A stretch of 64,000 nucleotides of DNA, taken from contig JAKAFK010000002.1 in NCBI GenBank assembly GCA_021817985.1, positions 1 through 64,000 on the forward strand, read 5' to 3'. The notes beneath the pieces are model-generated. The model saw only the letters and a list, made by a program, of their open reading frames with translations. It searched no databases and was not told where the DNA came from. Below, in pieces: positions 16,912 through 56,391 of this stretch (positions are counted from its first letter, which is position 1; every line of letters begins with the position of its first letter). The position numbers and the translations under genes were made by a program. Source of the stretch: Pseudomonadota bacterium (GTDB lineage Bacteria > Pseudomonadota > Gammaproteobacteria > Burkholderiales > JAKAFK01).

Positions 16912-18105
16912 TCACCGAGTGTTCGAGGCCCGGATGACAGGAACGCCTAAAAGCAACGCCCAGGCGCGCGCCTGAGCAGCCTGGATAGCCGGGCTTGGGT
17001 TTCCCTGGTCGGCCCACCACGCATTGCTTTGCAGCAGAATGAGATCGGGGCGCTGCCAGAGCGCCTCCAACCACGCCCATGGCAGCACCTGCTCATAACA
17101 GATCGAGGACCAGATCCTTAACCGTCCTATTTTTCTGACAGGCTCCCACCACGCCGCTTGGTACGAGTCGCGGCTTCCGGGCCGCCACATCGAGAGAGGC
17201 ATCGGTAGCGCAGAGTCAAAGAGTTTCGCTGGCGTGCCGCCACGCCGGAATGCATACACGGAGTCCGTTTCCCCGTTCTCCGCCCCAATGAGCCACGTTT
17301 CGCCCGCCGGAATAGCCTCCTCCACGAGATCCACAGTTCCAGGCAGCATGTCGTCCAGCACGGCCTCAGGAAACACCTCGAATCGCGCCGGATATGCCAA
17401 GCCTGCTTGTACAACGGACGCAGCGTTTGAGAGCGATTTAAAGACATTGCCGCCACTCGGCAGGAGCCCCTGCGTCGACACCGCGGCCCACCCCTTGGGA
17501 ATCGACGCTCTCCAATCGAACCTCTCCTGCACATGCACAAAGCCAAGGCCTGCCAATAACGGCAATATGAAACCAATGCGCAGACAACGGATGCCGTCAC
17601 TGTCATTCGCAAGCATTGACACAGCGCCACCGATAACCGCGAGCAGCACCAGGATCCCGACTGCTCCACTCCCAGGGCCAAGGTCCACTCCCGCAGCCGC
17701 GAAGGGAGAAATCACGTCCACAAGTCCAATCGGGGGAATCGCCTGCAACAGCATGGCCATCACCGTCCACCTCCCGTTCTTCGCGAGTACATACGGCGCG
17801 GCGAGAATCAGTGCCGTCGCCAGCCAGCTCGCGATCCCAATCCATGCCCCATGGCCAGGGAAAAATTCCGAGCAGCTCGGAAGAATCCCCCACGTCGCGG
17901 GCAGCATATAAGCCAGTGCAACACCGAACCGCCGCGATCGCCTTTCACCACCGCCCGCGAGCAGCGGCAATCCGATGGACAAGGCGGGGGCAAGCCACCA
18001 CACCTGGGCCGCCGTTAACGGCCACAGTAGCCCGAGCGCTGAGGCCATCCCGATGTCCGCTCGTTTGACGCATGCCATGCCCCAGCTACTCACTTCGGGC
18101 TCCAT
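16912..18105 (-). CDS. traB: TraB-like membrane protein with nitrilase / N-acyltransferase fold
   Basis: About 397 residues. The N-terminal half has about six membrane helices. The C-terminal half is a carbon-nitrogen hydrolase domain with SICYEQ around the expected catalytic Cys and ILLQSNAWWAD near the end, as in apolipoprotein N-acyltransferase (Lnt). TraB of Ti-type and related plasmids has this plan. One copy of the 17-bp palindrome is embedded at 17866-17882. The start is uncertain: ATG 18105 overlaps the end of the VirB1-like gene, and GTG 18123 is an alternative. Confidence 0.75.
   Translation of the reverse strand: MEPEVSSWGMACVKRADIGMASALGLLWPLTAAQVWWLAPALSIGLPLLAGGGERRSRRFGVALAYMLPATWGILPSCSEFFPGHGAWIGIASWLATALILAAPYVLAKNGRWTVMAMLLQAIPPIGLVDVISPFAAAGVDLGPGSGAVGILVLLAVIGGAVSMLANDSDGIRCLRIGFILPLLAGLGFVHVQERFDWRASIPKGWAAVSTQGLLPSGGNVFKSLSNAASVVQAGLAYPARFEVFPEAVLDDMLPGTVDLVEEAIPAGETWLIGAENGETDSVYAFRRGGTPAKLFDSALPMPLSMWRPGSRDSYQAAWWEPVRKIGRLRIWSSICYEQVLPWAWLEALWQRPDLILLQSNAWWADQGNPSPAIQAAQARAWALLLGVPVIRASNTR
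17866..17882. repeat. 17-bp palindrome TTCCGAGCAGCTCGGAA, copy 1
   Basis: Perfect 8-bp arms around one central base. It lies inside the traB-like gene, where the minus-strand frame reads it as P-S-C-S-E-F. Confidence 0.9.
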
Positions 18106-18608
18106 GGGACCGAGAACCGCCACCTCGGGGGAAGGTCCCCTGGTACACCATCAATCCCGGCCGCTGCCCATACCCGAACCGCGTACGCGGGCGCACCGAA
18201 GAGACTTCCTGAGTTGTATGCCTGAATTGCGTGATTGAGCGCGGCCTGCCCTCGGTAACCTTCTGCCAGCGCCAACCTCCATGCCTTCTCCAGGATCTTG
18301 CCGCCGGTCCGAATATTCACGCATGGATCGAATACGCTCGCCGCCGTCACACCATAACGCGCAAAGTTGAGGGTGTTGATCTGCATAAGTCCAGCATCGA
18401 CGCTGTGCCGTTGTCTGATCCAGCGTGAGAGAATCCGCTCCGCGTCCCGGATGCTCGCCGCGACGGTGCTCACGCCCGTGGTGTTATCGTGGAGGGCTAG
18501 AGGATCACCTTTCGATTCCACACGCACGATCGCCGCGACAGTCGAGGGTGCAACCTGGGGAGCGCACGTATGGGCAAGAGCAAGGATCGGCACCATACCG
18601 ATCACCAT
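18090..18608 (-). CDS. virB1: VirB1-like lytic transglycosylase
   Basis: 172 residues with an export signal-like start and a lysozyme-like domain: catalytic Glu31 in VRVESKGDP, GLMQIN, and a late AYNSGS motif. It locally degrades peptidoglycan for assembly of the mating channel. ATG 18608 overlaps the traF stop; the gene in turn overlaps the traB-like gene. It is distinct from the transglycosylase at 12510-12959 that serves the pil operon. Confidence 0.85.
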   Translation of the reverse strand: MVIGMVPILALAHTCAPQVAPSTVAAIVRVESKGDPLALHDNTTGVSTVAASIRDAERILSRWIRQRHSVDAGLMQINTLNFARYGVTAASVFDPCVNIRTGGKILEKAWRLALAEGYRGQAALNHAIQAYNSGSLFGAPAYAVRVWAAAGIDGVPGDLPPRWRFSVPWSPK

Positions 18609-19213
18609 GTCAGTACAGGAGTCAGCCGGGCCGATACAAGAGACTCGGGAACAGGCCCGAAGTAGCGCGAATCGAATGCGGCCGCACTGTGAGTCGCCAC
18701 CGCGAAAAATTCTCCCGGGGCCAGCTTCTGTGACCCGAACGGCTGGTGCGGGATTCGGGATCCGGCCTTCGATCGAGCAACGACTGCCGAATTTCCGATC
18801 ATGTGCCCGTTGACGCGGATCCCCGCCGGCTCCACATCCACCACGTCGCCAGGCAACGCGCCTACTTGTTTGATGAGCGGCAACACACCCCCGGGGCACT
18901 CCCCGGAGTTAGTCCCCAGCCACCCGCGGCCTCTCGCAAAAGCGATGACCACATTCGTCTCCGGCGGGCAAAACTCAACCAGCATGCCCCGCTTCCATTC
19001 CGAGCTGCTCGGAACAGATTTGAGGCGATATACTCCAAGAGGAAGACAGGGCGAAATATTGAGCGTCAGCCGCGCGGCCGACAAGACAGTCGGTCCCGCC
19101 GCCACGATCGTGGCGGCAAGCAGGCAAAGGCTCAGAATATGCCGATCTGGCGTCGGCCCGAAACGAAAGAAGCGGGTTCTGTCGGGAAACGAAGGCATGC
19201 CAGCATATAGCAT
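18602..19213 (-). CDS. traF: TraF-like conjugative signal peptidase (S26 family)
   Basis: 203 residues with an N-terminal membrane helix (about 28-47). The catalytic Ser region is SPCLPLGVY, and GDVVDV and the C-terminal FDSRYFGPV region are typical of S26 peptidases. RP4 TraF matures and cyclises the TrbC pilin, so trbC at 47122-47457 is the likely substrate. A 17-bp palindrome copy is embedded at 18998-19014. A later ATG at 19198 is also possible. Confidence 0.85.
   Translation of the reverse strand: MLYAGMPSFPDRTRFFRFGPTPDRHILSLCLLAATIVAAGPTVLSAARLTLNISPCLPLGVYRLKSVPSSSEWKRGMLVEFCPPETNVVIAFARGRGWLGTNSGECPGGVLPLIKQVGALPGDVVDVEPAGIRVNGHMIGNSAVVARSKAGSRIPHQPFGSQKLAPGEFFAVATHSAAAFDSRYFGPVPESLVSARLTPVLTW
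18998..19014. repeat. 17-bp palindrome, copy 2
   Basis: TTCCGAGCTGCTCGGAA inside traF, read on the minus strand as P-S-S-S-E-W. Confidence 0.9.
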
Positions 19214-22821: not shown

Positions 22822-22845
22822 TATAGCATCGGGAAAAGAGCTATA
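22822..22845 (-). promoter_or_regulatory. palindromic operator/promoter of the coupling/channel operon
   Basis: TATAGC-N12-GCTATA. On the minus strand the right half forms the -10 (GATGCTATAGG) and the left half falls at the -35 position, so a bound protein would cover the whole promoter. It lies 53 bp before the ATG at 22769. Confidence 0.75.
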
Positions 22846-27531: not shown

Positions 27532-28530
27532 TCATTCGCACAACCCTTGGCCCGCCTCACAAACCCGAAACAGGTTCCCCTGCCTTCCATCTTCGCCGAA
27601 CACATCTTCGTACCTGGCGAACTTGTTCTTCCGGAAATTGACCGTCGCCCAGCGCACAGCCCCGTCGATGGCGAACCTGTGTCTCCGTTGCGCAGGCGTG
27701 GCAGGAATCTCCTTCGTCGAGAAGAAAGGCGCAAATCCCGACTTCGATGCCCTGCTCACAAGTCCCTCCCAGGCGCGAATCCTCTCCACCTGCTCGGGAT
27801 AGCGATCCGCCAGCAGCCTGATCTCGCTCTTCCTCGCATAGATGCATGGCGCGCAGGAGACCCTTGAGAATCCGGACCCATACAAGGGATTAGCTGGGGT
27901 GCCCGACTCATCCAGGTACTTGAACACATCGGCGTCGGTCCACTCGAGGAGAGGCCGGAAGATCCACCATCCCGGGGCTTGGCGGGCATAGGGAAGCAGA
28001 TCCGCCCGCTTGTCGCTGTCGGCCCGCTTAACGCCCTGCCACACGATAAGAGGCCGGTTCTCATGCGCTGCCAGGAGCCAGTTCGCCACCACCTCGGTCT
28101 TTAGCCGCCGGGTGCAAAATCTCCGCTGATTCGTCGGGAACATTCCCGAGAGGAGACACAAATCCAGGAAGGGGTTCCCTGTAGGACGCAGTACCTCAAG
28201 CGCCTCCCGCTTCCTCCGGTTCGTGCGGCGTTTCTTCGCACCCCGGTAGTCCCTTCCAGTTCGCAGATCGCGTGCGATCGCCTGTCTCGCCTGCGCAAAC
28301 TCCTCCGAGAAATCCGCCTGCAGGCGCTCGATCTTGTGCCCCAAGTGGGACGAAAGGCAGTCCAGGTATCGGTACGTCTCCGGATGCTCGTTCCCGGTAT
28401 CGGCGAACACCAACCGCAACCGATCACGCGGCAGACGCCGCGTCGCCAACGCCCCACATACGGCCGAATCCTTCCCGCCGGAGATCAGAACGATATGAAG
28501 GGGGCGAATTCCGAGCTGCTCGGAATTCAT
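27532..28530 (-). CDS. PAPS-reductase-like PP-loop protein
   Basis: 332 residues with the PP-loop SGGKDSA (17-23), FADTGNEHPET, and cysteine motifs FCTRRLK and SCAPCIYARK typical of phosphoadenosine phosphosulfate reductase-like proteins (CysH superfamily, which also includes DndC). Its first codons are the palindrome itself (M-N-S-E-Q-L-G-I). The ATG overlaps the stop of the zinc-ribbon frame (ATGA). It lies inside the DNA-processing operon, so a role in nucleotide or DNA modification is as likely as sulfur assimilation. Confidence 0.75.
   Translation of the reverse strand: MNSEQLGIRPLHIVLISGGKDSAVCGALATRRLPRDRLRLVFADTGNEHPETYRYLDCLSSHLGHKIERLQADFSEEFAQARQAIARDLRTGRDYRGAKKRRTNRRKREALEVLRPTGNPFLDLCLLSGMFPTNQRRFCTRRLKTEVVANWLLAAHENRPLIVWQGVKRADSDKRADLLPYARQAPGWWIFRPLLEWTDADVFKYLDESGTPANPLYGSGFSRVSCAPCIYARKSEIRLLADRYPEQVERIRAWEGLVSRASKSGFAPFFSTKEIPATPAQRRHRFAIDGAVRWATVNFRKNKFARYEDVFGEDGRQGNLFRVCEAGQGLCE
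28506..28528. repeat. 17-bp palindrome, copy 3 (extended to 23 bp)
   Basis: Core TTCCGAGCTGCTCGGAA at 28509-28525, flanked symmetrically by GAA and TTC so the whole 23 bp is palindromic. It forms codons 2-8 of the PAPS-reductase-like gene (frame S-E-Q-L-G). Confidence 0.9.
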
Positions 28531-30907: not shown

Positions 30908-30942
30908 CACTTCTTCCATCGATGCGGGAACGGGATGGCGAA

Positions 30943-30959
30943 CTCCGAGCTGCTCCGAT
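30943..30959. repeat. degenerate copy of the 17-bp palindrome
   Basis: CTCCGAGCTGCTCCGAT matches the core at 14 of 17 positions. It lies between the divergent genes at 30846 and 31037. Confidence 0.5.
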
Positions 30960-31036
30960 TACCCGGCTGAGCGCATATGACCCACCACACCCTTTATCTT
31001 GCACTCTGTTTGGGGTGGTAGTATGGTGCTCAATGA

Positions 31037-33050: not shown

Positions 33051-35714
33051 TCAATGCACCCAGAAATCAGCCACCGCAGGCTCCGCCTCTGTCGGCACAC
33101 CCCAGGGCAAAAGAAGTTCGTCCGCTGCGGCGATAAGCGTTTTGTCCACCTCTCGCGTGGTGCACTCTACCTCCCCCTCGGGGACCTCAAGCACCAGCTC
33201 GTCGTGCACGAAATCCACAAGATATTCCTGGATCTCGTCTGAGAGGTTCCCAAGCGCACTGAGCGCGATCTCCGCGCCCGTGCCCTGGTCCTGGTAATTG
33301 AGTGCGTTGTTCAGCGCGTCCGTGACGACCGGCCTCCCTGACAACGTGGCGGTGCGATAGATTTTCTTCTTCTGGCCAAGATTGTCTGGATCTACGACCT
33401 TTACGTTCCCAAAACGGGTGAGCATGTGCCAAAGCGAGACCTCCGGATAAAGCTGGAACCACGCCCCATGCGCACTTGCGGCCTCCGCCTGATCCCATGA
33501 GAGATCGTATTCGGTGATCCCATTCGAATGCAGCGTCTCGGGACTCATGAGGTATAGCAGTCCGAAGTTTGTCGGCTTCGCCGCCTGGCGCGCTCCCTTG
33601 AGGGACTCCTTCAAAGCCTTTTGCGCCCCCTTCTCCAGCAACTTGACATACTCGAGCGCGGGCTTCCCACCTGTGTCGTATCTTCCGGCCAGCACTTCGG
33701 TCGAAACGGCCGTGATGATGTGGGGGTCCAGTCCCTTCGAGAACACCTCGCTCAGCGTCAAGCGGTCTTTTGCTGGATCCACCTGAAACGCTCCCGCTCT
33801 CCACATCAGAACGACGACTCGCCAGAACTCGGCCACGTAGTAGGTTCCCCATTCCGACGGCTCCGAGACCCCGGCGGCCGGACGCTCAATGATGTCCGGA
33901 GCGCCGGGCGGGAGTTCCTGGAAGGCAAGGAGATGCACGAGGCAATCGATCAGGGAAGCGGAGCCATTATTGTTTGGCTTGCCGGGGTGTCCCAGCAGCC
34001 ATCCGATTCGGAGCTTGCGCACCTGCTCGGCATACTCATGTCTACGGCCACTGAGTATGGCATCGATCAGCGCCCGGACAGCACGATAGGCGCGCATGGC
34101 GAGCGCCGCAGCAATCCGCATTTCGATCGCTCCGTAGTCGATCGCGAGAATCTTGAAGCCTGCACGTGCGCGGAAAAGCGTGCGAAACGCCTTGTCGCGT
34201 GGCATGTTCTGGAGGTTCGGCTCCTGGCTTGTCGTTCTGCATGTCAGCGCCGAGATGACGATAAGCGGGTGCAGGCGCCCTTCACTATCCGCCTGGGCGA
34301 GATAAGCGCTCGCCATGGCTGCACGCTTGATCGCGCCCTGGGCCTCCAAATAGCGCTTCAGCGCCGGCAGATCACGATAAACCAGCTTGAGGTGCTTCGC
34401 GTTGAGGATCGGCTCACCTTCGGCATTGCAGCCAGGGTGCTTGCCAGTTCGCTCTTCCAGGGCTTTTGCAAACGCCGCCTTGAATTGCTCGGTCTGGCCA
34501 CCGTCCAGGATATTTTGCCGGTAGGGTTCAAGGCTCGGCAGTTCCTGGAAGAGCGCTTCGAGCGAAGCATCTGCCGCCCGGCGGTTGCACTCAACATAGT
34601 CGCTTACAGCGAGTGCATCGAGGCGGAGCCCGTTGCGCTGCATCCGGGAGAGGACCGGCACGGCGCGCTCGAGCGCGTTATACGCGTGGCCACCACAATG
34701 CGCGTCCAACGCCGCGAGCATCTCGGCGGTTGAACTACTCGCGGGTAGGTTGAGTACCAATCTCGCAATGACAGGTGGTTGCGTGATATCTGCTAGGCAA
34801 TACTCATGATGCCTTGGGGATAGGGTTGAGAGCATCCAGTTGTGAGGCGTCTGGAAGTCCTTGTCGAGTTTCTGATGCAGCAGCGCCATCGACAGAAAAT
34901 CCAGAGGAAGCCCCCGCGAGGCCTCACCAGCATCGCTCTTGAACTTGCGCGCCCGCCTACTTTTGACGGCATCCAGCAACTGCTTGTGAACTTCGGTCCC
35001 AAACGGAAGCAAGTGCAGCGCCCAAGACTCGTGATGTCCCAATCGGGAATAGAGATCCGCGCCGCCAAGGATCGCGTCGGAGACACACAGCTCAAACTCC
35101 GGGGCGATGGTGAGCGTCATCAGGAAGGTATCAACAAGCCGTCCTGGCTTGACGCTGGGAACGTCGTGCCGCAGCCACTGCAAGTCGAACGCAAGGTTGT
35201 GGCCCACCCACGTTTTGCCATCCAATGCGGAAACCAATCTCGTCCGTTCATGTTGCTGCAGACGATCAAGATCAAATGCGAACTTGCGAGAGGACAGCGT
35301 GGTGAAGGACAGAATTCTTGCACGTGGGCGATTATCCAATTCGCACCCGTAGGCCTTCTTGTACTGATTGACCGTGTCCCCGGTCCCGACCTTCGTGCTT
35401 CCTCCGACCGCGATCGGCGCTTGCCAAGGCGTTAGCGCCGTCGTCTCCAAGTCCAGACTGACTTCAGACGCGACTGTGAGGGCATCAAGTGCTTCTCCGA
35501 GCTGCTCGGAAGAATCGAATGCCCCTGGGGTAGCCGGAAAAAAGGCTATCTCTTCCTTCTTGCGGACCTTGTGTGGCGCTTTCCCCGCCGTTTCGACCGG
35601 CATTCCAAACAGATCAACCGCGACCGCCTTCGGTGGCTCGTTAAGGGGAGGCTGTTCGGGAACCGTTCCGGTGTAGACTCCCTCGGGTCTTAGCTCAGCG
35701 AAGAAATCAAGCAT
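33051..35714 (-). CDS. family A DNA polymerase with 3-prime exonuclease domain
   Basis: 887 residues. A 3-5 exonuclease-like domain (SLDLETTAL, DLE at 88-90) precedes the polymerase: motif A ILAIDYGAIEMR, motif B RQAAKPTNFGLLY, and motif C FVHDELVLEV. The 5-nuclease domain of bacterial Pol I is missing, as in phage T7-like or plasmid polymerases. About 130 residues separate motif A from the region before motif B, more than usual. It contains one palindrome copy (S-S-E-Q-L-G, residues 68-73). Together with the primase-helicase it suggests that the element encodes its own replication enzymes. Confidence 0.9.
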   Translation of the reverse strand: MLDFFAELRPEGVYTGTVPEQPPLNEPPKAVAVDLFGMPVETAGKAPHKVRKKEEIAFFPATPGAFDSSEQLGEALDALTVASEVSLDLETTALTPWQAPIAVGGSTKVGTGDTVNQYKKAYGCELDNRPRARILSFTTLSSRKFAFDLDRLQQHERTRLVSALDGKTWVGHNLAFDLQWLRHDVPSVKPGRLVDTFLMTLTIAPEFELCVSDAILGGADLYSRLGHHESWALHLLPFGTEVHKQLLDAVKSRRARKFKSDAGEASRGLPLDFLSMALLHQKLDKDFQTPHNWMLSTLSPRHHEYCLADITQPPVIARLVLNLPASSSTAEMLAALDAHCGGHAYNALERAVPVLSRMQRNGLRLDALAVSDYVECNRRAADASLEALFQELPSLEPYRQNILDGGQTEQFKAAFAKALEERTGKHPGCNAEGEPILNAKHLKLVYRDLPALKRYLEAQGAIKRAAMASAYLAQADSEGRLHPLIVISALTCRTTSQEPNLQNMPRDKAFRTLFRARAGFKILAIDYGAIEMRIAAALAMRAYRAVRALIDAILSGRRHEYAEQVRKLRIGWLLGHPGKPNNNGSASLIDCLVHLLAFQELPPGAPDIIERPAAGVSEPSEWGTYYVAEFWRVVVLMWRAGAFQVDPAKDRLTLSEVFSKGLDPHIITAVSTEVLAGRYDTGGKPALEYVKLLEKGAQKALKESLKGARQAAKPTNFGLLYLMSPETLHSNGITEYDLSWDQAEAASAHGAWFQLYPEVSLWHMLTRFGNVKVVDPDNLGQKKKIYRTATLSGRPVVTDALNNALNYQDQGTGAEIALSALGNLSDEIQEYLVDFVHDELVLEVPEGEVECTTREVDKTLIAAADELLLPWGVPTEAEPAVADFWVH
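35495..35511. repeat. 17-bp palindrome, copy 4
   Basis: CTCCGAGCTGCTCGGAA (one mismatch at the first base) inside the polymerase gene, read as S-E-Q-L-G. Confidence 0.85.
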
Positions 35715-36083: not shown

Positions 36084-36098
36084 TTCAAGCGGAATGAA
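36084..36098. repeat. TTCAAGCGGAATGAA motif, copy 2
   Basis: Overlaps the last codons and stop of the BRO-N gene (I-H-S-A-stop) and the upstream edge of the polymerase operon promoter. Confidence 0.75.
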
Positions 36099-36513
36099 TG
36101 GGTACGCAGACACCTCTCACACGTCCGTCCACGACACGCATTGTTTTCTGCCGAGCGGCGCGATCCTCTTCTTTGCCTGGCGCGGAATAGGAGCCTGTCT
36201 TTCTGATTGCAGGGAGGACATCATGGGTTACCCAGCGCTTGAAGCGCTTCGCGGCATCCTTGGTGCTGCCGAGGATCAGCGCGTACAGGCCGGACTCATT
36301 GACGACGCTCGCTAGTTGGACGCGGCCGAGCCTATCGATGATGTCGCGTTTTGCGACGTCATCCGAGTCGACATGTTTGGTAATCGCATCGCGCGGATTC
36401 GCCAATTCCAGGGCGGCACAGACGTCATTGGTGTTGAACCACGGCTGACCAGCATCGTCGACCTGTACGCGCAGGGCGCGCGACTCGAAGCGGAATGGGA
36501 TGATATTCGGCAT
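36085..36513 (-). CDS. BRO-N domain protein
   Basis: 142 residues. PWFNTNDVCAALELANPRDAI, VNESGLYALILGSTK, FKRWVTHDVLPAIRKTGSY is a complete BRO-N (phage antirepressor-type) DNA-binding domain. The usual second domain is absent, and the frame ends inside a TTCAAGCGG motif, so the gene may have been shortened when the motif arose. It lies at the edge of the repeat-rich region and may regulate it. Confidence 0.85.
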   Translation of the reverse strand: MPNIIPFRFESRALRVQVDDAGQPWFNTNDVCAALELANPRDAITKHVDSDDVAKRDIIDRLGRVQLASVVNESGLYALILGSTKDAAKRFKRWVTHDVLPAIRKTGSYSAPGKEEDRAARQKTMRVVDGRVRGVCVPIHSA

Positions 36514-36539
36514 TTATTGGCAGATCCCCCTCTTGAACA

Positions 36540-36556
36540 CTCCGAGCAGCTCGGAA
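36540..36556. repeat. 17-bp palindrome, copy 5
   Basis: CTCCGAGCAGCTCGGAA, intergenic, 27 bp before the BRO-N start. Confidence 0.85.
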
Positions 36557-36583
36557 AAGTTTCTCCAAACCCTAGCCAAACAG

Positions 36584-36598
36584 TTCAAGCGGACTGAA
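36584..36598. repeat. TTCAAGCGGACTGAA motif, copy 3
   Basis: 15 bp, intergenic, 28 bp beyond palindrome copy 5. Confidence 0.75.
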
Positions 36599-37690: not shown

Positions 37691-40363
37691 CTACTCTAGT
37701 TGCAACGGGATGCGCACTCCATGTGCCCGGCCGGCGGCCACGCGCTGGCGGCACCGCTCCGCCCCGGGCAGGCGTCCGAGCAATGTGACAATGTTCTGCG
37801 TTGCATATTGTGTGTTTCTGAGGACTCCGCGAAGCTCTGGGCAATCACAAACAAAAAGGGAACCAGGCTGGCCTGCAGTTTCCCCTTCCATACGCGCCAT
37901 TCCCGCGCGCTTGAGCGCATCCTGGTATGCATTGTCGTGATCCTTCGGATGTCTCTTCGCCGCCTCCGTGAATACCTCAGCGACGACGCGATCATGGCGG
38001 AGAACACTGCGGTGGCCGGTCTCCGGATTTACCGTCTCCACCTCCACGGCCATCCGCGCCCCAAGAAGCGCCCGCAACGCCTTCTCGGCGTCTGTCTCGA
38101 GCGCATCATTCCCGCTTGCATGCTGCTGCTCCTTCGCGACATCCTGGAGCGAAGAAAGGAGCTTCTGCCTCCTTTCCTCCGTCTTAAGCGTTTCTTCGCC
38201 GTATGACAATGTGGCGAATGCCGCAAGGGGGACACCCCACGTTCGCAGGAGCCTGGCGTCGGCTTCGGTCACCTTCGTCCCTTCCTCTACCAGGAACGAA
38301 TAGATTTCCCTAAACGTCTCCCATCGAGACCACATGATGTGCCGTATTCGCTCGCCGAGCTCGCCGAGCCCAATGGTTGACGGAGGGTGCTCCGCGCGCC
38401 CGCGCTTGGCAACCTCGACGACGATGAAGCGGTTGCGGTCGGCCTGCTCAAAGTCCGGCCTCCCGATGGCCGCAATCATGGCGGCGGTTCGTATGCTGAA
38501 CTCCACTGGTCGTCCATCAGGGGATCCCTTCACGGCTGCGAGAGCCCGAGACCCGTCTGAAGTCGAATACGCAGCTCGCAGCATGTCGAGCACGCGGCGC
38601 AGCATCGCCGCACGCTGGTGGGCAACTTGCGTATCAGACGATCCAGGCTCCGACTCGTCGACGAGAAGCGTGACCGCATCTTTTCCCAGCAGCTGCCTAA
38701 GCCCTGCCGCAGAGCTGTTCGCGCCATCGTCCAGGCGCCACACGGTACCTCCCAAAACTTCCGAAACGTGCAGTGCCAGAACCGACTTGCCGGCCCCCGA
38801 CTCTCCGCAGAGAGTCACGGAAGGCCGCGCGTCCAAGGCGCCAAGATAGGACTGCGCGACGATCCATCCTGCCAGGAGCAGCGCATCCGCTTTGCCAGCC
38901 CATCCCCATTGGGAGAGATGACGGAGCAATCGAGCGGCGGATTCAAGGGCCTCGTCGTCCGTCCACTCAACCCCGACGTCGACGTGAAAGCGGCTCGTGG
39001 CCGGGTACACGTACTGGCCTCCGAATCTCGCTTCCTCCTCCAGGAGGACCAGCCCCTCTTCACTCGTTCGCAAGAGCCCGCTGCTCGAGTTGATGGTGAG
39101 TTGCCCCTCCACCTCGCGCCACACCCCCCCGCCCCGCTCACGTGCATCGGCCCAAGGACCCGCAGCATGACACTGGGAAACGATGTCATACCCGGCTTGG
39201 AAGGCGTCGATCGAGACTGCATCGTCCTTCCCGATCTTCTTCCACGTTTCCATCGCATAGGCAGCGCCGCAGGCATGCATGATTTCCGCAACTTTGCTAA
39301 GATTTGTGGGTGTAAGATGCTTTACGGACTTCGTAGGGCGGGACCAGATGACCAGGTGTTCCTTGGTGAAGCCGAGCGCCGCATACCCACCGGCCTTCGC
39401 CTCCTCTGCTCGCTTCCGGCTCGATGCGAGCCGCTCGACGTTGGCGCTCCGGGAGGCTGCGGTCATGTGTATGATCGCTGGTATGACCGCATCGCGCCCG
39501 TCTCGTACCAGCCAATCGTCGATACCCTGCTTGCCACCCTCCTGGGTGGGCGGGCACCAGTTCCCCGCAACCGGCAGCCCCTGCCTTGCGAATTCTTCCC
39601 TGATAGCCTTGGCGAGTTTCAGGCATTCCCAATAGACATCTTGGTTCCCGACGTATTGCTGGCGCTTTCCCTTGCCGACTGGCTTGTCCTTGTCGGAGGC
39701 CGGGGCTCCGTGAGGTGCACCGTCAGAATCGAATAGAACGAGCACCACAGCCTGCTCACCGGCTGCCGCGATGTATTTGCCGATGATCTCCCTGATATCC
39801 GGCAACAGTCGTCTGGGCGACGCCGTATCATCCGGATCGTCGCGAACATTGCCCATGTGGATGCCGGCGATGGCGACGGTTGGAAGGCCGGCCTTACATA
39901 GAGCCTCGGCCTTTTTCTCCCCTTCCGTGATGACAAAAGGCGGAATACTCTCCTGCCTCCCGGTGGAAGCCCCTTCGGGGGGCTGGGAAGATGATTCCGA
40001 GCTGCTCGGAAAAGCATCGAGCAACTCCTTGAGCCTGCATGGAATGTAGAGATGAGAGCCCGTGCCCGCAGGGGAGCGGTATTTGCTCGACTTGTACCTC
40101 TCTGCCAGGAGTCGCACCCGTACGAACGGACTGCCGTTGACGTTCAGTGCTCCTCCGTCGAAGTGCCGGTACGGAATGGCAATTCCGTCTGAGACGATTT
40201 TCCCTTCGGGGATTCCCAGCAAGGCGTTGAGGCGGAACTTCTCCACGTAAGTCCATGTGGGGACATCGGAAGGCGAGAGTCCGCTCTGGAACAAAAAGAC
40301 TTCCAGCGGGCCCTGGGGCGACGCTCCTTGTTCCTTTGGAGGGCAGCGGGTTTCAGCGTCCAT
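37691..40363 (-). CDS. TOPRIM primase-helicase (DUF3854-like plus SF3/DnaB-class ATPase)
   Basis: 890 residues. The N-terminal part has a TOPRIM domain (VITEGEKKAEALCKAG at 145-159, LVLFDSDGA at 208-216) as in DUF3854 proteins. The C-terminal half is a P-loop helicase-like ATPase with Walker A GESGAGKS (520-527) and VTLLVDESEPG as Walker B. This domain order is that of plasmid and phage primase-helicases that start replication. A palindrome copy is embedded at 39995-40011 (P-S-S-S-E). With the polymerase and the lambda-P-like protein it forms a nearly self-sufficient replication set. Confidence 0.8.
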   Translation of the reverse strand: MDAETRCPPKEQGASPQGPLEVFLFQSGLSPSDVPTWTYVEKFRLNALLGIPEGKIVSDGIAIPYRHFDGGALNVNGSPFVRVRLLAERYKSSKYRSPAGTGSHLYIPCRLKELLDAFPSSSESSSQPPEGASTGRQESIPPFVITEGEKKAEALCKAGLPTVAIAGIHMGNVRDDPDDTASPRRLLPDIREIIGKYIAAAGEQAVVLVLFDSDGAPHGAPASDKDKPVGKGKRQQYVGNQDVYWECLKLAKAIREEFARQGLPVAGNWCPPTQEGGKQGIDDWLVRDGRDAVIPAIIHMTAASRSANVERLASSRKRAEEAKAGGYAALGFTKEHLVIWSRPTKSVKHLTPTNLSKVAEIMHACGAAYAMETWKKIGKDDAVSIDAFQAGYDIVSQCHAAGPWADARERGGGVWREVEGQLTINSSSGLLRTSEEGLVLLEEEARFGGQYVYPATSRFHVDVGVEWTDDEALESAARLLRHLSQWGWAGKADALLLAGWIVAQSYLGALDARPSVTLCGESGAGKSVLALHVSEVLGGTVWRLDDGANSSAAGLRQLLGKDAVTLLVDESEPGSSDTQVAHQRAAMLRRVLDMLRAAYSTSDGSRALAAVKGSPDGRPVEFSIRTAAMIAAIGRPDFEQADRNRFIVVEVAKRGRAEHPPSTIGLGELGERIRHIMWSRWETFREIYSFLVEEGTKVTEADARLLRTWGVPLAAFATLSYGEETLKTEERRQKLLSSLQDVAKEQQHASGNDALETDAEKALRALLGARMAVEVETVNPETGHRSVLRHDRVVAEVFTEAAKRHPKDHDNAYQDALKRAGMARMEGETAGQPGSLFVCDCPELRGVLRNTQYATQNIVTLLGRLPGAERCRQRVAAGRAHGVRIPLQLE
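39995..40011. repeat. 17-bp palindrome, copy 6
   Basis: TTCCGAGCTGCTCGGAA in the low-complexity linker of the primase-helicase, read as P-S-S-S-E-S. Confidence 0.9.
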
Positions 40364-40450: not shown

Positions 40451-40933
40451 TCAAAAGATCGGCTGAGCAACGAGTCGGACCCGAACTGTGTTTCCAATGG
40501 GTGCTTCGGTGGTGTGCATGGTCATCGGCACACCTCCCTGAATGGGGAGGGAATACGTGACCGTATAACCTTCGCTGATTTCCTGGTAACCCGTCATGCA
40601 TTGCCCGCCAGGAGCCATTGAGCCTCCCGAGAAGTTGTTGCCCACGATGCCGCCAGCGATCGCGCCGGCCGCCGCGGCCGCGACGCGTCCATTGCCGTGG
40701 CCTACGGTGTTGCCCAGCAGTGCGCCGGCAATGCCGCCGATGATGGTCCCTGTGGCGCTCCCGCCGTTCTGCACTGGAGCGCCACAGGGACCATAGACTG
40801 GAACCTGCCGCGACACAGGTTGAACGGAAAGCACAGTTGCATCCACATCGACATAGTTGGAATAAACGGCGGAGTCTGCGATCGCGGATGCGGAGGCAGC
40901 GGCAAGGGCGACGGCGAGCATAATTTTTTTCAT
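40451..40933 (-). CDS. glycine-zipper outer-membrane protein (SlyB/PcP-like)
   Basis: 160 residues: signal peptide (cut after ASAIADS), a central glycine-zipper double helix (GTIIGGIAGALLGNTVGHG, then AGAIAGGIVGNNF) and a short beta-rich tail. Proteins of this type insert in or brace the outer membrane. No lipobox Cys at the signal-peptide end. A TATAGC/GCTATA promoter half-site lies at 40966-40971. Probably a stress or surface-exclusion-like function; unproven. Confidence 0.75.
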   Translation of the reverse strand: MKKIMLAVALAAASASAIADSAVYSNYVDVDATVLSVQPVSRQVPVYGPCGAPVQNGGSATGTIIGGIAGALLGNTVGHGNGRVAAAAAGAIAGGIVGNNFSGGSMAPGGQCMTGYQEISEGYTVTYSLPIQGGVPMTMHTTEAPIGNTVRVRLVAQPIF

Positions 40934-43452: not shown

Positions 43453-43684
43453 GAAAGACCTACTTTTCCCCCACGGAAATCAGAGTGCAAGATAAAGGGT
43501 GTGGTTGGTCGTATCGACGCACGCGAGGATTCCGAGTTGCTCGGAATCTCGTCGTTGCACGCTGCAAAGTGCCGCAGGATCACGCTTGACGTTGACTGTC
43601 CATCTGTGTTTCACTGATGTATAACGCTATACGATTGGCGGAGCTATCCAGGCCCGGCGCAAGCCGTATCCGCGAAGGAAGAGA
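43453..43684. other. intergenic region with palindrome copy 7 and a promoter
   Basis: No gene recognised. It contains the palindrome at 43528-43548 and an extended -10-like GCTATACG (43626-43633) about 52 bp before the next ATG. Confidence 0.5.
43528..43548. repeat. 17-bp palindrome, copy 7 (TT centre)
   Basis: Core TTCCGAGTTGCTCGGAA at 43530-43546, extended symmetrically by GA and TC. Intergenic. Confidence 0.85.
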
Positions 43685-45361: not shown

Positions 45362-45631
45362 ATGGATGGGGAATTCCGAGCTGCTCGGAAAATGACGATG
45401 GTGACGGAGCATGATGCGGGGAAGGTCTTGAATGCCCTGTTGACGCAGATTCCGCCGCAGCAAATTTCGGCCTACTGCTTGAAGGCCGCGATCGCTGCCG
45501 ACGACAGCGAGCTGGCGAACTGCATGTTTCATCTGGCCAGGACACCCGCAGCTGCGACGGACGAGATGCAGCGTTGCGTTGCGATGTACATGTCCTACAC
45601 ACCACTCAAGTTCATCCCGGAGGGTTACTGA
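45362..45631 (+). CDS. uncharacterised small protein, first gene of the trb operon
   Basis: 89 residues, helical. A good AAGGGGG site precedes ATG 45362. Palindrome copy 8 lies in the first codons (E-F-R-A-A-R-K), so either the N-terminus includes it or translation begins at ATG 45392 just after it. No recognised domain. The next gene starts 2 bp after its stop. Confidence 0.6.
   Translation: MDGEFRAARKMTMVTEHDAGKVLNALLTQIPPQQISAYCLKAAIAADDSELANCMFHLARTPAAATDEMQRCVAMYMSYTPLKFIPEGY
45374..45390. repeat. 17-bp palindrome, copy 8
   Basis: TTCCGAGCTGCTCGGAA 12 bp into the first gene of the trb operon, third reading frame (F-R-A-A-R). Confidence 0.9.
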
Positions 45632-46046: not shown

Positions 46047-47033
46047 ATGTCCGCTGTCTTGTCCCCCAAGGAAGAGCAGCACCGACGGCTTGTACAGCAG
46101 ATGCGCTCGACGTTCGGGCCGGTGGTTTGCAGGGCGTTCGAGGATCCGCTCGTCGTGGAGGTCATGCTCAACGACGACGGGAATGTCCTGGTGGAACGCC
46201 ACGGCCGTGGGATTGAGGTGGAAGGGACACTCCCGGCCCAGCAGGGAATAAATGCCATTGGCCTGGTCGCTAGTTGGATCGGGGCCATCGGGAACGCCGA
46301 CCATCCGATCGTGGAGGGCGCGCTTCCCAAGGAGTTCGGCGGCGCGCGCTTCGAGGGCGTTTTGCCGCCCTGCTCCCCCGGGCCGCTGTTTGCCATTCGG
46401 CTCAAGGCCAGAGTGGTTTACACGCTCGAGGATTATGTCTCCAAGGGGATCATGTCTTCCGAGCAGCTCGGAAGACTGCGACAGGCAGTTATTAACCACC
46501 AGAACATCCTGGTGTCCGGCGGGACAGGGTCAGGCAAGACCACACTGGGAAATTCGCTATTGCGCGAAGTCGCGGTTGGCGCGGGGCTTAACGACCGGAT
46601 CGTGCTGATCGAGGACACGCCGGAACTCGAGTGTACGGCACCCAATACAGTGAGTCTCCTCACCAAGGACACCGTGGACATGACCCGGCTTCTCAAAGCC
46701 ACCTTGAGGCTCCGGCCAAACCGAATAATCGTTGGGGAGGTCCGTGACGGATCAGCACTGGCGTTATTGAAGGCCTGGAATACCGGGCACCCGGGTGGAT
46801 TGGCGACCATCCATGCCAACAATCCGGAAGGCGCGCTTCTACGACTGGATCAGTTGTGCCAGGAAGCCGGTGTGCCGTCCCAGCACCAATTGATACGTGA
46901 AGCCGTGGATCTAGTGGTTCAGATATCACGGACCAATGAACCACCTGGCCGCCGTGTTCATGCCATCTTCGACGTCAAGACAAGCAATACGGCCTTGACC
47001 TCTTCCGCTCAAGGAGATCTCCGATCGACCTAA
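46047..47033 (+). CDS. trbB: TrbB/VirB11-family secretion ATPase
   Basis: 328 residues. Walker A GGTGSGKTT (158-166), IEDTPELE acidic box, Walker B RIIVGEVRDG, and TGHPGGLATIHANN histidine box, all typical of TrbB. It energises assembly of the P-type mating channel. A palindrome copy is embedded just before the ATPase core (S-S-E-Q-L-G). Size matches RP4 TrbB. Confidence 0.93.
   Translation: MSAVLSPKEEQHRRLVQQMRSTFGPVVCRAFEDPLVVEVMLNDDGNVLVERHGRGIEVEGTLPAQQGINAIGLVASWIGAIGNADHPIVEGALPKEFGGARFEGVLPPCSPGPLFAIRLKARVVYTLEDYVSKGIMSSEQLGRLRQAVINHQNILVSGGTGSGKTTLGNSLLREVAVGAGLNDRIVLIEDTPELECTAPNTVSLLTKDTVDMTRLLKATLRLRPNRIIVGEVRDGSALALLKAWNTGHPGGLATIHANNPEGALLRLDQLCQEAGVPSQHQLIREAVDLVVQISRTNEPPGRRVHAIFDVKTSNTALTSSAQGDLRST
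46454..46476. repeat. 17-bp palindrome, copy 9 (extended to 23 bp)
   Basis: Core at 46457-46473 flanked symmetrically by GTC and GAC. Inside trbB, read as S-E-Q-L-G. Confidence 0.9.
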
Positions 47034-53069: not shown

Positions 53070-53837
53070 ATGTTCGACCGGAAACGCATTAGCGCGGTTA
53101 TCGTCCTATCGGGACTTTTCGCCTCCCCTGCTGTCCGGGCCTCCGGGATGATTGACGGCGCCACTTTGCCGGAGCAGATCGTTCAGGAAGCAACCGCCGT
53201 GCAACGGTACGAGCAGAGCGTTCAGCAGACGTACCAAGGGTTCCAGTCGTTGTATAACCAAGCAAGGAACCTGCAAAGTCTGGCGCAGAACCCGGTCCAG
53301 AACCTTAGCCCCCTCATGGGGCAGTTGATCAGCGCCGTGCAAACGGGCACGAATTTGTCTTACGCCGGACAGAATATTACCGGCATGTTTCAAAAGCTCT
53401 ATTCCAACTGGAAACCGGGACAGGACTTTGGGCAGGAATTTGCGAATTGGCGCAATACGACCCTCGCCAACCTCGAGAATGAACTCACCGCCGCGGGCCT
53501 GCAGGCGGCGGATTTTACCAACGAGAGCAACGCCCTCAACCAGGCCGTCAAGTTGAGCCAAAGCGCAACGGGCAGGTTGCAAGCGATCCAGGCGGGCACC
53601 GCCGTCTCCGCGATGCTTGCCCAACAGGTGCAGGAACTGCGCCAGCTCATCATGAACGAGCAGCAAAGCCAGATAGCGTACCGAGAGCAAATGCTGAACT
53701 CCGACAAGGATGGCGCGCAGCAAGCGCAGTACGCATCAACCCAATTTCTCAGCAACGACAAATACTCGACCTACAAGAATACGTCGCCGGACTCCCTCGA
53801 CGTCTGGAGCATTGCCAAAGAAGGGGCATCAAAATGA
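53070..53837 (+). CDS. trbJ: TrbJ/VirB5-family protein
   Basis: 255 residues: signal peptide (cut near VRASGM), then a long helical bundle rich in Gln, Asn and Leu with the TrbJ pattern (YEQSVQQTYQGFQSLYNQAR near the start). VirB5/TrbJ proteins sit at the pilus tip or in the periplasm. A GAGGAG site precedes ATG 53070, and the stop overlaps trbL (ATGA). Confidence 0.85.
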   Translation: MFDRKRISAVIVLSGLFASPAVRASGMIDGATLPEQIVQEATAVQRYEQSVQQTYQGFQSLYNQARNLQSLAQNPVQNLSPLMGQLISAVQTGTNLSYAGQNITGMFQKLYSNWKPGQDFGQEFANWRNTTLANLENELTAAGLQAADFTNESNALNQAVKLSQSATGRLQAIQAGTAVSAMLAQQVQELRQLIMNEQQSQIAYREQMLNSDKDGAQQAQYASTQFLSNDKYSTYKNTSPDSLDVWSIAKEGASK

Positions 53838-55294
53838 CAGCAGATCGTGAAGTAAAAACGTGGTCTTTTTCCTGGAATGCGGCCATCGCGCTTGTGATTC
53901 TTGAGATAACCCCGCTCTCCGCGCATGCATCGAGCGTCTTCGATATCGTCACCAGTTCATTTGCCCCTATGGTGGCGTGGGGCGCACAGTCCGAAGCGGT
54001 GGGCAAGGATATCCTCTACACATTCGCAGTGCTTGACGTCGTTTGGATGGCGCTTCAATGGGTGATCAACAGGAAGACGTTCGACGAGTTGCTACCGAGC
54101 CTGATCCGCAAGATGCTGGTTCTTGGCTTCTTCGCGTATTTGCTCATGAACGGCTCGCGCCTCGCGGGACTGATCGAGGCCACGTTCGTCCATATCGGGG
54201 GGCAGATTTCTGGGCGATCCGCGCCCCTGACACCCAGCTCTCTGATCGACATCGGCAACAACACGTTCGCAAACATTCTGGAGGAGTTTGATCAAGGAAT
54301 GTATGCCACGTTCTTCAGTGGCAGTTGGTCATCAGTTATCGAATCCATTCCAAAATTTCTGATGTATCTGCCCTTGATTTACCTGGCCGCAGGCCTCATG
54401 TGGCTCGCCTTCATGTTCATGGCCATCGATCTCATCGTCCTGACCGTCGAAAACTACTTCGTCATCGGCGGAGGCCTTTTTCTCCTCGGGTTTGGCGGAT
54501 CGCGATGGACCGCGAAGTACGCGGAAGGCTACATCAACTATGCCGTCAATGTGGGCATGCGGCTCGCCGTGCTTTATATGATTGTTGGCGTTGTTGTGAA
54601 CAGTGTCGTCCCCGGCCTGCAGGGCCCGATCAAGGACATTTTTTCGGGAAACAACATCGGTTTTGAAGGTGTAATGTCGGTCGCGGGCGTGGGCCTTGTC
54701 CTGCTGATGATATCGAAAGCGCTACCATCGAAGGCGGCATCGATGCTCTCAGGAGGATCCCATCTGACAGGAACGAATCTGGCCGGAATGGCGGCTCCTA
54801 TGGCTAGCGCCGCCGCCATGGGCACGGCCGCCCTAGCAACTGGCGGAACAGCTCTCGCGGCAGGGATGGCAGCCAAGGCGGCCGGAGGTGCCATCTCGGC
54901 GGGGACGGGGGCCGTTGCCGGCGCTAGCATGAGCCAAGTCGCGGCAGCACAGCTGGGCGGGGCCGGCATGGGGGACGCCGCCGCGTCTGGGTTGACGGAC
55001 ATTGCGTCGATCAATGCCCGGGCGGCTAAAGGCGTCCCGGCACCAGGGGTACCACGAGGCGCCGAGGATCCGGCTGGCTCCCCTTCGCCTGCTTCTGCGG
55101 GTGTAGATAGCGCTGGAGGAAAGCCACCAAGCGGTCTGTCCCCATCTGGTCCCCAGGAAAGATCCCTGGCGAGCAGCATGCTGGGTGCGGCGAGCAGGCA
55201 CACAGGTGAAGGGATCGGGTCCGCGCTCGGGGGTCAGCATGGCGCAGGCTCGGTGCAATCAAACCATGTCAATTTCTCGCATGGGAATGAGTGA
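53834..55294 (+). CDS. trbL: TrbL/VirB6-family channel membrane protein
   Basis: 486 residues. A signal-like N-terminus and about six membrane segments lie between residues 15 and 300, followed by a Gly/Ala/Ser-rich and Pro-rich soluble tail. This is the TrbL plan; the protein forms part of the inner-membrane channel. It overlaps trbJ by 4 bp. Confidence 0.9.
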   Translation: MTADREVKTWSFSWNAAIALVILEITPLSAHASSVFDIVTSSFAPMVAWGAQSEAVGKDILYTFAVLDVVWMALQWVINRKTFDELLPSLIRKMLVLGFFAYLLMNGSRLAGLIEATFVHIGGQISGRSAPLTPSSLIDIGNNTFANILEEFDQGMYATFFSGSWSSVIESIPKFLMYLPLIYLAAGLMWLAFMFMAIDLIVLTVENYFVIGGGLFLLGFGGSRWTAKYAEGYINYAVNVGMRLAVLYMIVGVVVNSVVPGLQGPIKDIFSGNNIGFEGVMSVAGVGLVLLMISKALPSKAASMLSGGSHLTGTNLAGMAAPMASAAAMGTAALATGGTALAAGMAAKAAGGAISAGTGAVAGASMSQVAAAQLGGAGMGDAAASGLTDIASINARAAKGVPAPGVPRGAEDPAGSPSPASAGVDSAGGKPPSGLSPSGPQERSLASSMLGAASRHTGEGIGSALGGQHGAGSVQSNHVNFSHGNE

Positions 55295-55297
55295 CGC

Positions 55298-55546
55298 ATG
55301 GGCAAACACGAGGACGAGATAAGGCGCGGGTACCTGGTCGGACTCCAGGATCAAATCGCATACATGAAGCGAGAGCAACCGCAGGAATGGCGCGTGCAAA
55401 AAGCCATGGGGGTTGTTGCGCTGGCTACGGGCTTGCTGATCTACAACGGGCACCCAGTCTGGGGCTGTGGAATTCTCATTACTGCCACGGTCATTGCGGC
55501 CTGGCACCCCAAGCGCCCAGCAAAGCGGCGGACAGAGCCGGAGTAA
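55298..55546 (+). CDS. small two-helix membrane protein after trbL
   Basis: 82 residues with one long hydrophobic hairpin (MGVVALATGLLIYNG, then CGILITATVIAAW) and basic ends. It begins 3 bp after trbL. No family recognised; perhaps an accessory membrane component of the channel. Confidence 0.6.
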   Translation: MGKHEDEIRRGYLVGLQDQIAYMKREQPQEWRVQKAMGVVALATGLLIYNGHPVWGCGILITATVIAAWHPKRPAKRRTEPE

Positions 55547-55606: not shown

Positions 55607-55641
55607 GGGCCATGATTCCGAGCTGCTCGGAATCATGGCCC
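55607..55641. repeat. palindrome copy 10, extended to 35 bp
   Basis: The 17-bp core TTCCGAGCTGCTCGGAA (55616-55632) is flanked by nine further symmetric bases on each side (GGGCCATGA and TCATGGCCC), giving perfect 17-bp arms around one base. It lies between the small membrane protein and trbF, just before the trbF promoter. As RNA it would make a very stable hairpin, possibly an attenuator or processing site. Confidence 0.9.
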
Positions 55642-55655
55642 AATCACCCTTTTAC

Positions 55656-55668
55656 TTGTGCTATATCT
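55656..55668 (+). promoter_or_regulatory. extended -10 promoter of trbF
   Basis: TTGTGCTATATCT, about 37 bp before the ATG at 55705 and 15 bp after the 35-bp palindrome. Confidence 0.45.
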
Positions 55669-55704: not shown

Positions 55705-56391
55705 ATGAGCAAAGTTTCCCCGGATTACATGGCTGCCAGGCGCGAGTGGCTGGAGCGCTATGGCGACTATATCGCCCAGGCACGGAACTGGCGGACGATG
55801 GCATTCGGAGCGATTGCGATCGCAGCCCTCTTTGGCGCTGGCATGGTGTATGAGGCCCAGCGCGTCAAGGTCGAGCCCTACGTTGTCGAAGTCGACAAAC
55901 TGGGTGAATCCGTCCGGCTGGCGCAGGCCATCCAGACAGGGGCCGCTCGGCAGCCGATCGTGACGCATGTTCTCAGCCATTGGCTCGTGGATGTCCGCGA
56001 ACGGATAGGCGACCCGAACGCCGAGAAAGCCGCGATCCTGGACGCATACACATACATGACGCAGGATTCCGGGCAGGCGCTCGGGAACTATATGAATCAG
56101 GACCCAATGTATGCAGCGTCGGATCCCAACAGCGGGGTCGGGTCACGGACCGTCGAAATTCACTCGGCCCTACCTTTGGGAAATCCGACCCCGAAGGGGG
56201 GGACCTACCAGATCCAGTGGACTGAGCGCACACACGGGAAAGACGGGTCCCTTGTGTCAACTCAGCGTTGGACTGGAATCGTCTCCTACGTGCTCCTGCC
56301 GCCGGATGTCGGGGCGCACTCGACGCAACAACTGCTACAGAATCCGTTTGGCATCTACATCACGAGCTTCCAATGGCAGCAAACCCTTTGA
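55705..56391 (+). CDS. trbF: TrbF/VirB8-family protein
   Basis: 228 residues: one N-terminal membrane helix (about 30-48), then a periplasmic VirB8-like domain (VEVDKLGESV..., HWLVDVRERIGD..., TYQIQWTERTH). Links the inner-membrane channel with the core complex. ATG 55705 has a GAGGGA site. Confidence 0.9.
   Translation: MSKVSPDYMAARREWLERYGDYIAQARNWRTMAFGAIAIAALFGAGMVYEAQRVKVEPYVVEVDKLGESVRLAQAIQTGAARQPIVTHVLSHWLVDVRERIGDPNAEKAAILDAYTYMTQDSGQALGNYMNQDPMYAASDPNSGVGSRTVEIHSALPLGNPTPKGGTYQIQWTERTHGKDGSLVSTQRWTGIVSYVLLPPDVGAHSTQQLLQNPFGIYITSFQWQQTL

Follow-up and report, generated by a model that had tools for sequence, protein, structure and literature searches.

A palindrome upstream of trbF as a probable operator of a KorB-like dispersed-site system on a conjugative element

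The palindrome in front of trbF is probably an operator of a KorB-type dispersed-site repressor and partition system carried by a conjugative element; judging from the sequence, we put the probability of this reading at about two in three. Most likely, the site would serve for docking of the element's own ParB/KorB-like protein. Systems of this kind are known, and the literature searched yielded no report of this protein-site pair. The window, i.e. the whole stretch of 64,000 nucleotides that was analysed, is part of the conjugative element, with pil genes (including those for a shufflon protein and a secretin) and genes for a coupling protein, a relaxase with DUF3363, a topoisomerase, a protein with a DNA polymerase A domain, trbB, trbE, trbL, trbF, trbG, trbI and ArdC. 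On the contig (C63), the element comprises trb, tra, pil and relaxase functions. The surroundings of trbF contain the following features:

53834-55294, plus strand: trbL (VirB6/TrbL family), end of the upstream trb part
55298-55546, plus strand: 82-aa ORF between trbL and the gap
55607-55641: 35-bp perfect palindrome with 17-bp arms and a 1-nt centre, the copy before trbF
55615-55633: 19-bp core ATTCCGAGCTGCTCGGAAT, the part common to the other copies, proposed operator
55659-55667, plus strand: extended -10-like box TGCTATATC, proposed trbF promoter, hexamer at +38 from the palindrome centre at 55624
55705-56391, plus strand: trbF (VirB8/TrbF family, PF04335), ATG at 55705

The initial annotation had described a 35-bp perfect palindrome with 17-bp arms in a 158-bp gap, and both hold exactly: the inverted repeat reads GGGCCATGATTCCGAGC-T-GCTCGGAATCATGGCCC, with 17 of 17 positions paired around a single T, and the gap extends from the end of the 82-aa ORF at 55546 to the trbF start codon. 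When the 116,125-bp contig was scanned for perfect palindromes with a centre of 0-1 nt, this was the longest one, the runners-up having 11-bp arms. The trbF frame is open back to 55291 and thus runs across the palindrome, but in alignments with trbF homologues, similarity begins only at about residue 5-8 of the 228-aa form, which places the palindrome outside trbF, on its upstream side.

The extended -10 noted earlier is likewise present, and both its sequence and its position are conserved in relatives. Outside this genome the closest relatives of trbF are found in Acidithiobacillus (at most 57% identity), and in 9/10 Acidithiobacillus-type relatives, the trbF start is preceded at 36-50 bp by a CTATAYY box (44 bp in the window); some of these relatives are close kin, so that these do not amount to nine independent cases; the box occurs in 1.7% of 80-bp background tiles. 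It is very probable from these sequences that trbF has its own promoter, and the two trb parts can therefore be expressed separately. The palindrome is placed exactly at this predicted promoter, directly upstream of the conserved box, and its core ends 5 bp ahead of the expected -35 position if a 17-bp spacer is assumed. Since no palindrome was found upstream of trbF in the relatives, the promoter appears to be older than the operator. Separate expression of the two halves of the trb genes, as suggested initially, is thus plausible by means of trbF's own promoter and operator, whereas the mechanism then proposed for it is probably wrong. The longer form GCTATAYY is enriched in the window (12 occurrences vs 1.7 expected, e.g. 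at 22840, 32769, 36072, 51256 and 55660) and is perhaps the usual promoter form of the element.

The core of the palindrome is dispersed over the element. A search of the window for the 19-bp core gave 11 matches at up to 3 mismatches (0.02 expected by chance), and two more copies lie beyond the window, so that counting the trbF palindrome as 'copy 10' was right in spirit. The 15-bp core TCCGAGCWGCTCGGA is present in 11 exact and 2 one-mismatch copies, a total of 13 that span 17.8-74.6 kb (57 kb) of the one 116-kb contig, with none in the rest of the 3.97-Mb genome. No exact copy of the TCCGAGC palindrome was detected in 29 Acidithiobacillus-family genomes, and viral contigs gave just three scattered single matches. 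The copies other than that before trbF are:

17865-17883: core copy
18997-19015: core copy upstream of an SLT transglycosylase gene (18090-18899, minus strand), with a minus-strand TATATC just upstream
28508-28526: core copy at the 5' end of a PAPS-reductase-like gene
30942-30960: degenerate core copy with 1 mismatch in the 15-bp core, GCAAGATAAAG box 51 bp away
35494-35512: core copy in the 5' part of a long ORF with a DNA polymerase A domain
36539-36557: core copy upstream of a Bro-N gene (36085-36513, minus strand)
39994-40012: core copy within an 890-aa ORF (37691-40363, DUF3854)
43529-43547: core copy with 1 mismatch, non-coding, GCAAGATAAAG box 51 bp away
45373-45391: core copy heading the trb cluster, downstream of a TATATAAC box
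46456-46474: core copy within the coding sequence of trbB (VirB11-like ATPase)
contig position 64904 (centre 64911), beyond the window: core copy at the parAB operon promoter
contig position 74609 (also given as 74616), beyond the window: core copy within a C-5 cytosine methylase gene

At least 5 of the 13 copies are inside genes, hence not every copy is a promoter operator. Altogether, a palindrome of 15-19 bp that occurs 13 times over 57 kb, once before a parA-parB operon, suggests recognition by a DNA-binding protein rather than an RNA structure.

This operon lies past the window end at contig positions 64944-67670 and encodes a 181-aa small putative DNA-binding protein (P0002), ParA (PF13614) and a ParB-domain protein (ParB_N, PF02195; contig positions 66318-67670), the ParB_N match being above gathering score and both the ParA and the ParB gene lying next to a core copy. 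A -10-like hexamer is found at +30 from the palindrome centre at the operon promoter. The ParB is divergent, with about 25-31% overall identity to relatives; the GERRxRA motif of ParB_N is conserved in the alignment, and a profile of the family matches structures of Spo0J/ParB/Noc and KorB (KorB 8qa8, E 8e-14). No match to KorB-specific Pfam families was obtained up to E 0.01, no close ParB relatives were found in viral contigs, and the OB consensus TTTAGCSGCTAAA has a single 2-mismatch match in the window, which is at chance level. We therefore call the system KorB-like by its layout, which is not meant to imply KorB identity, as it is without a KorB-specific Pfam domain or OB consensus.

Members of the same ParB family occur in Acidithiobacillus elements, where a different 15-bp odd-centred palindrome, GTCTACCSGGTAGAC, was found. 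The G104:C220 element contains ten copies of it, one two-mismatch copy within a cluster being left aside in this count. Among the 29 genomes compared, all six with a close ParB (at least 74% identity to the reference ParB, given as L118 and as C220) have 6-33 copies of GTCTACCSGGTAGAC, as compared with any copy in 5/23 of the other genomes of the family (Fisher exact about 0.001 by our calculation, which ignores kinship); GTCTACC palindromes were present in 5 genomes without a close ParB in the assembly. Among the matches listed for G104, G109 and G113, palindromes are within about 16 kb of parB, and one is inside parB. The gene order small protein-ParA-ParB is kept in most elements compared, the YTS05 loci being without the small gene. 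In C220, the three-gene operon has a palindrome at its promoter, with TATACC behind it (+28 relative to the palindrome centre). When 88 sites were pooled, TATAYY was conspicuous at two offsets, +28 (in 7 contexts, corresponding to about 3 independent promoters) and +38 (in 2); the offsets on C63 are +30 (parAB operon) and +38 (trbF). A box at +26 to +40 accompanies 2 of the 13 core copies vs 0.05 expected, the P of 0.001 being only indicative because this range was picked after seeing the data; CTATAYY within 100 bp of all 13 copies was not significant (2 vs 0.74, P 0.17). That two unrelated palindrome sequences have a common layout is the strongest evidence for the trbF palindrome being a promoter-tied operator. 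In the YTS05 and G106 elements, which have related ParBs, no clear dispersed palindromes were seen, and G+C-rich repeats in the G017 and G049 elements, considered as candidates, were judged to be compositional.

A serious rival, if an unlikely one, is that the small protein P0002, encoded by the first gene of the operon, is the binder instead of ParB and acts on the palindromes as a global repressor, ParB having another centromere. The position of its gene before parA-parB in most elements compared, including those with GTCTACC palindromes, is in line with this, and a core copy directly at P0002's own promoter would fit autoregulation. By eye, its 181 residues read as two ribbon-helix-helix-like halves, but no match was found in Pfam or PDB, so the fold itself is unproven. 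Copy number, spread and intragenic placement are more in keeping with ParB/KorB sites than with a classical operator, and the GTCTACC elements have a copy inside parB itself.

It is very unlikely that the palindrome acts mainly through an RNA hairpin formed when transcripts from the trbL side read through it, i.e. as a terminator, RNase III site or stability element. Its stem is G+C-rich and, at -34 kcal/mol, more stable than those of 200/200 shuffled sequences, and its arms are far longer than those of the other 12 core copies (17 bp vs at most 11 bp). Lengthening of 9-11-bp arms to 17 bp by chance is expected only roughly 0.0003-0.004 times over 13 copies, so that a separate cause is needed for the long arms; they are not accounted for by an operator of 15-19 bp and stay partly unexplained. 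Against a hairpin function, however, the palindrome is absent at this place in relatives, its core is common to 12 other copies, at least 5 of them within genes, and the predicted promoter is downstream of it, which leaves trbF's own transcript without the hairpin. An Rfam search gave no match. The termination suggested in the initial annotation found no support: directly after the stem there is no U-tract in either direction (AATCACCCTTTT on the plus strand, GGAAAATG on the minus strand) and no terminator call was made, and a classical intrinsic terminator was accordingly rejected. That the palindrome is a cruciform or a functionless chance sequence, lengthened by templated repair of an imperfect one, is hardly credible: template switching can lengthen perfect inverted repeats and the outer arms occur in one copy only, but the 13 copies are confined to the element, and operon-promoter placement and spacing are common to the unrelated palindrome sequence of the sister elements.

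Some other motifs were noted in the neighbourhood. The sequence GCAAGATAAAG (reverse CTTTATCTTGC) occurs in the window at 31002 (minus strand) and 43487 (plus strand) and also at L118 14597, L159 14969, L162 14013, L163 7606 and others. Its distance to the palindrome is fixed, 51 bp upstream for both copies on C63 and 49 bp downstream of one palindrome in most GTCTACC elements. It resembles YATCYTGY, the consensus of nic sites in MOBP-type transfer origins; by this likeness the copies, two of them on C63, may be oriT sites. A second dispersed motif, TTCAAGCGGANTGAA(AA), surrounds replication-like genes (32980, 36087, 36587, 41042 and 41829 on the plus strand, 41901 and 50769 on the minus strand), is followed at 36587 by an inverted GGACTGAAAA / TTTTCAGTCC pair, and is possibly another operator. 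Within a replication-like region, 40743-40794 forms a perfect 19-bp inverted repeat with a 14-nt loop, ATGGTCCCTGTGGCGCTCC.

If the palindrome is an operator of the KorB-like system, the ParB-like protein would bind it as a dimer, as KorB does at OB, and RNA polymerase would be blocked by the bound protein at the promoter of trbF. The element would thereby keep this gene and those downstream of it under the same control as its parAB operon. Copies inside trbB, the DNA methylase gene and other genes may serve for loading and subsequent sliding to distant promoters, or for partition. The outer 8 bp per arm, extra in the trbF copy only, overlap the expected -35 position and might, speculatively, provide stronger binding or a processing hairpin in read-through RNA. 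In RK2, KorB is a ParB-type clamp that depends on CTP and represses jointly with KorA; its OB sites are found either 4-10 bp upstream of promoters or farther upstream, at 45 to >1,000 bp (PMC11790492).

Under the operator reading, transfer genes (here from trbF on) should be subject to joint control with partition. Among ParB-type clamps that act as distant silencers, KorB of IncP plasmids is the one mainly studied, and protein-site pairs of the same layout with other site sequences would offer independent systems for testing the generality of clamp-based silencing. More broadly, and quite improbably as a whole, diverse acidophile conjugative elements might share a second, independent KorA-KorB-like network, each with a divergent ParB clamp and its own dispersed palindrome at fixed promoter spacing (+28/+38), also beside putative oriT nic sites; one clamp would then link partition with the silencing of transfer genes and with DNA transfer, and an RNA hairpin would be an additional role of the trbF copy.

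Among known systems, the ParB-parS pairs of Spo0J and Noc are similar in ParB_N with GERRxRA, in the profile matches to structures and in having several sites near parAB, whereas the sites here are spread over 57 kb and occur at transfer-gene promoters, as for KorB. The present system resembles KorB/OB of RK2 (IncP-1) in that a trb-bearing conjugative element is dotted with odd-centred palindromes, one of which lies at the operon's own promoter, and in that sites occur both just upstream of promoters and further off; as in korA-incC-korB, the ParB-domain protein is encoded last in a small regulator-ParA-ParB operon. It differs from KorB/OB in its site, TCCGAGCWGCTCGGA and not TTTAGCSGCTAAA, and in a remote ParB sequence, and from KorA in a small regulator without a Pfam match, for which no KorA likeness was found. 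With the Acidithiobacillus GTCTACCSGGTAGAC elements it shares the homologous three-gene operon, dispersed 15-bp odd palindromes and TATAYY at +28/+38, while those elements have another palindrome sequence and copies that are often several close together.
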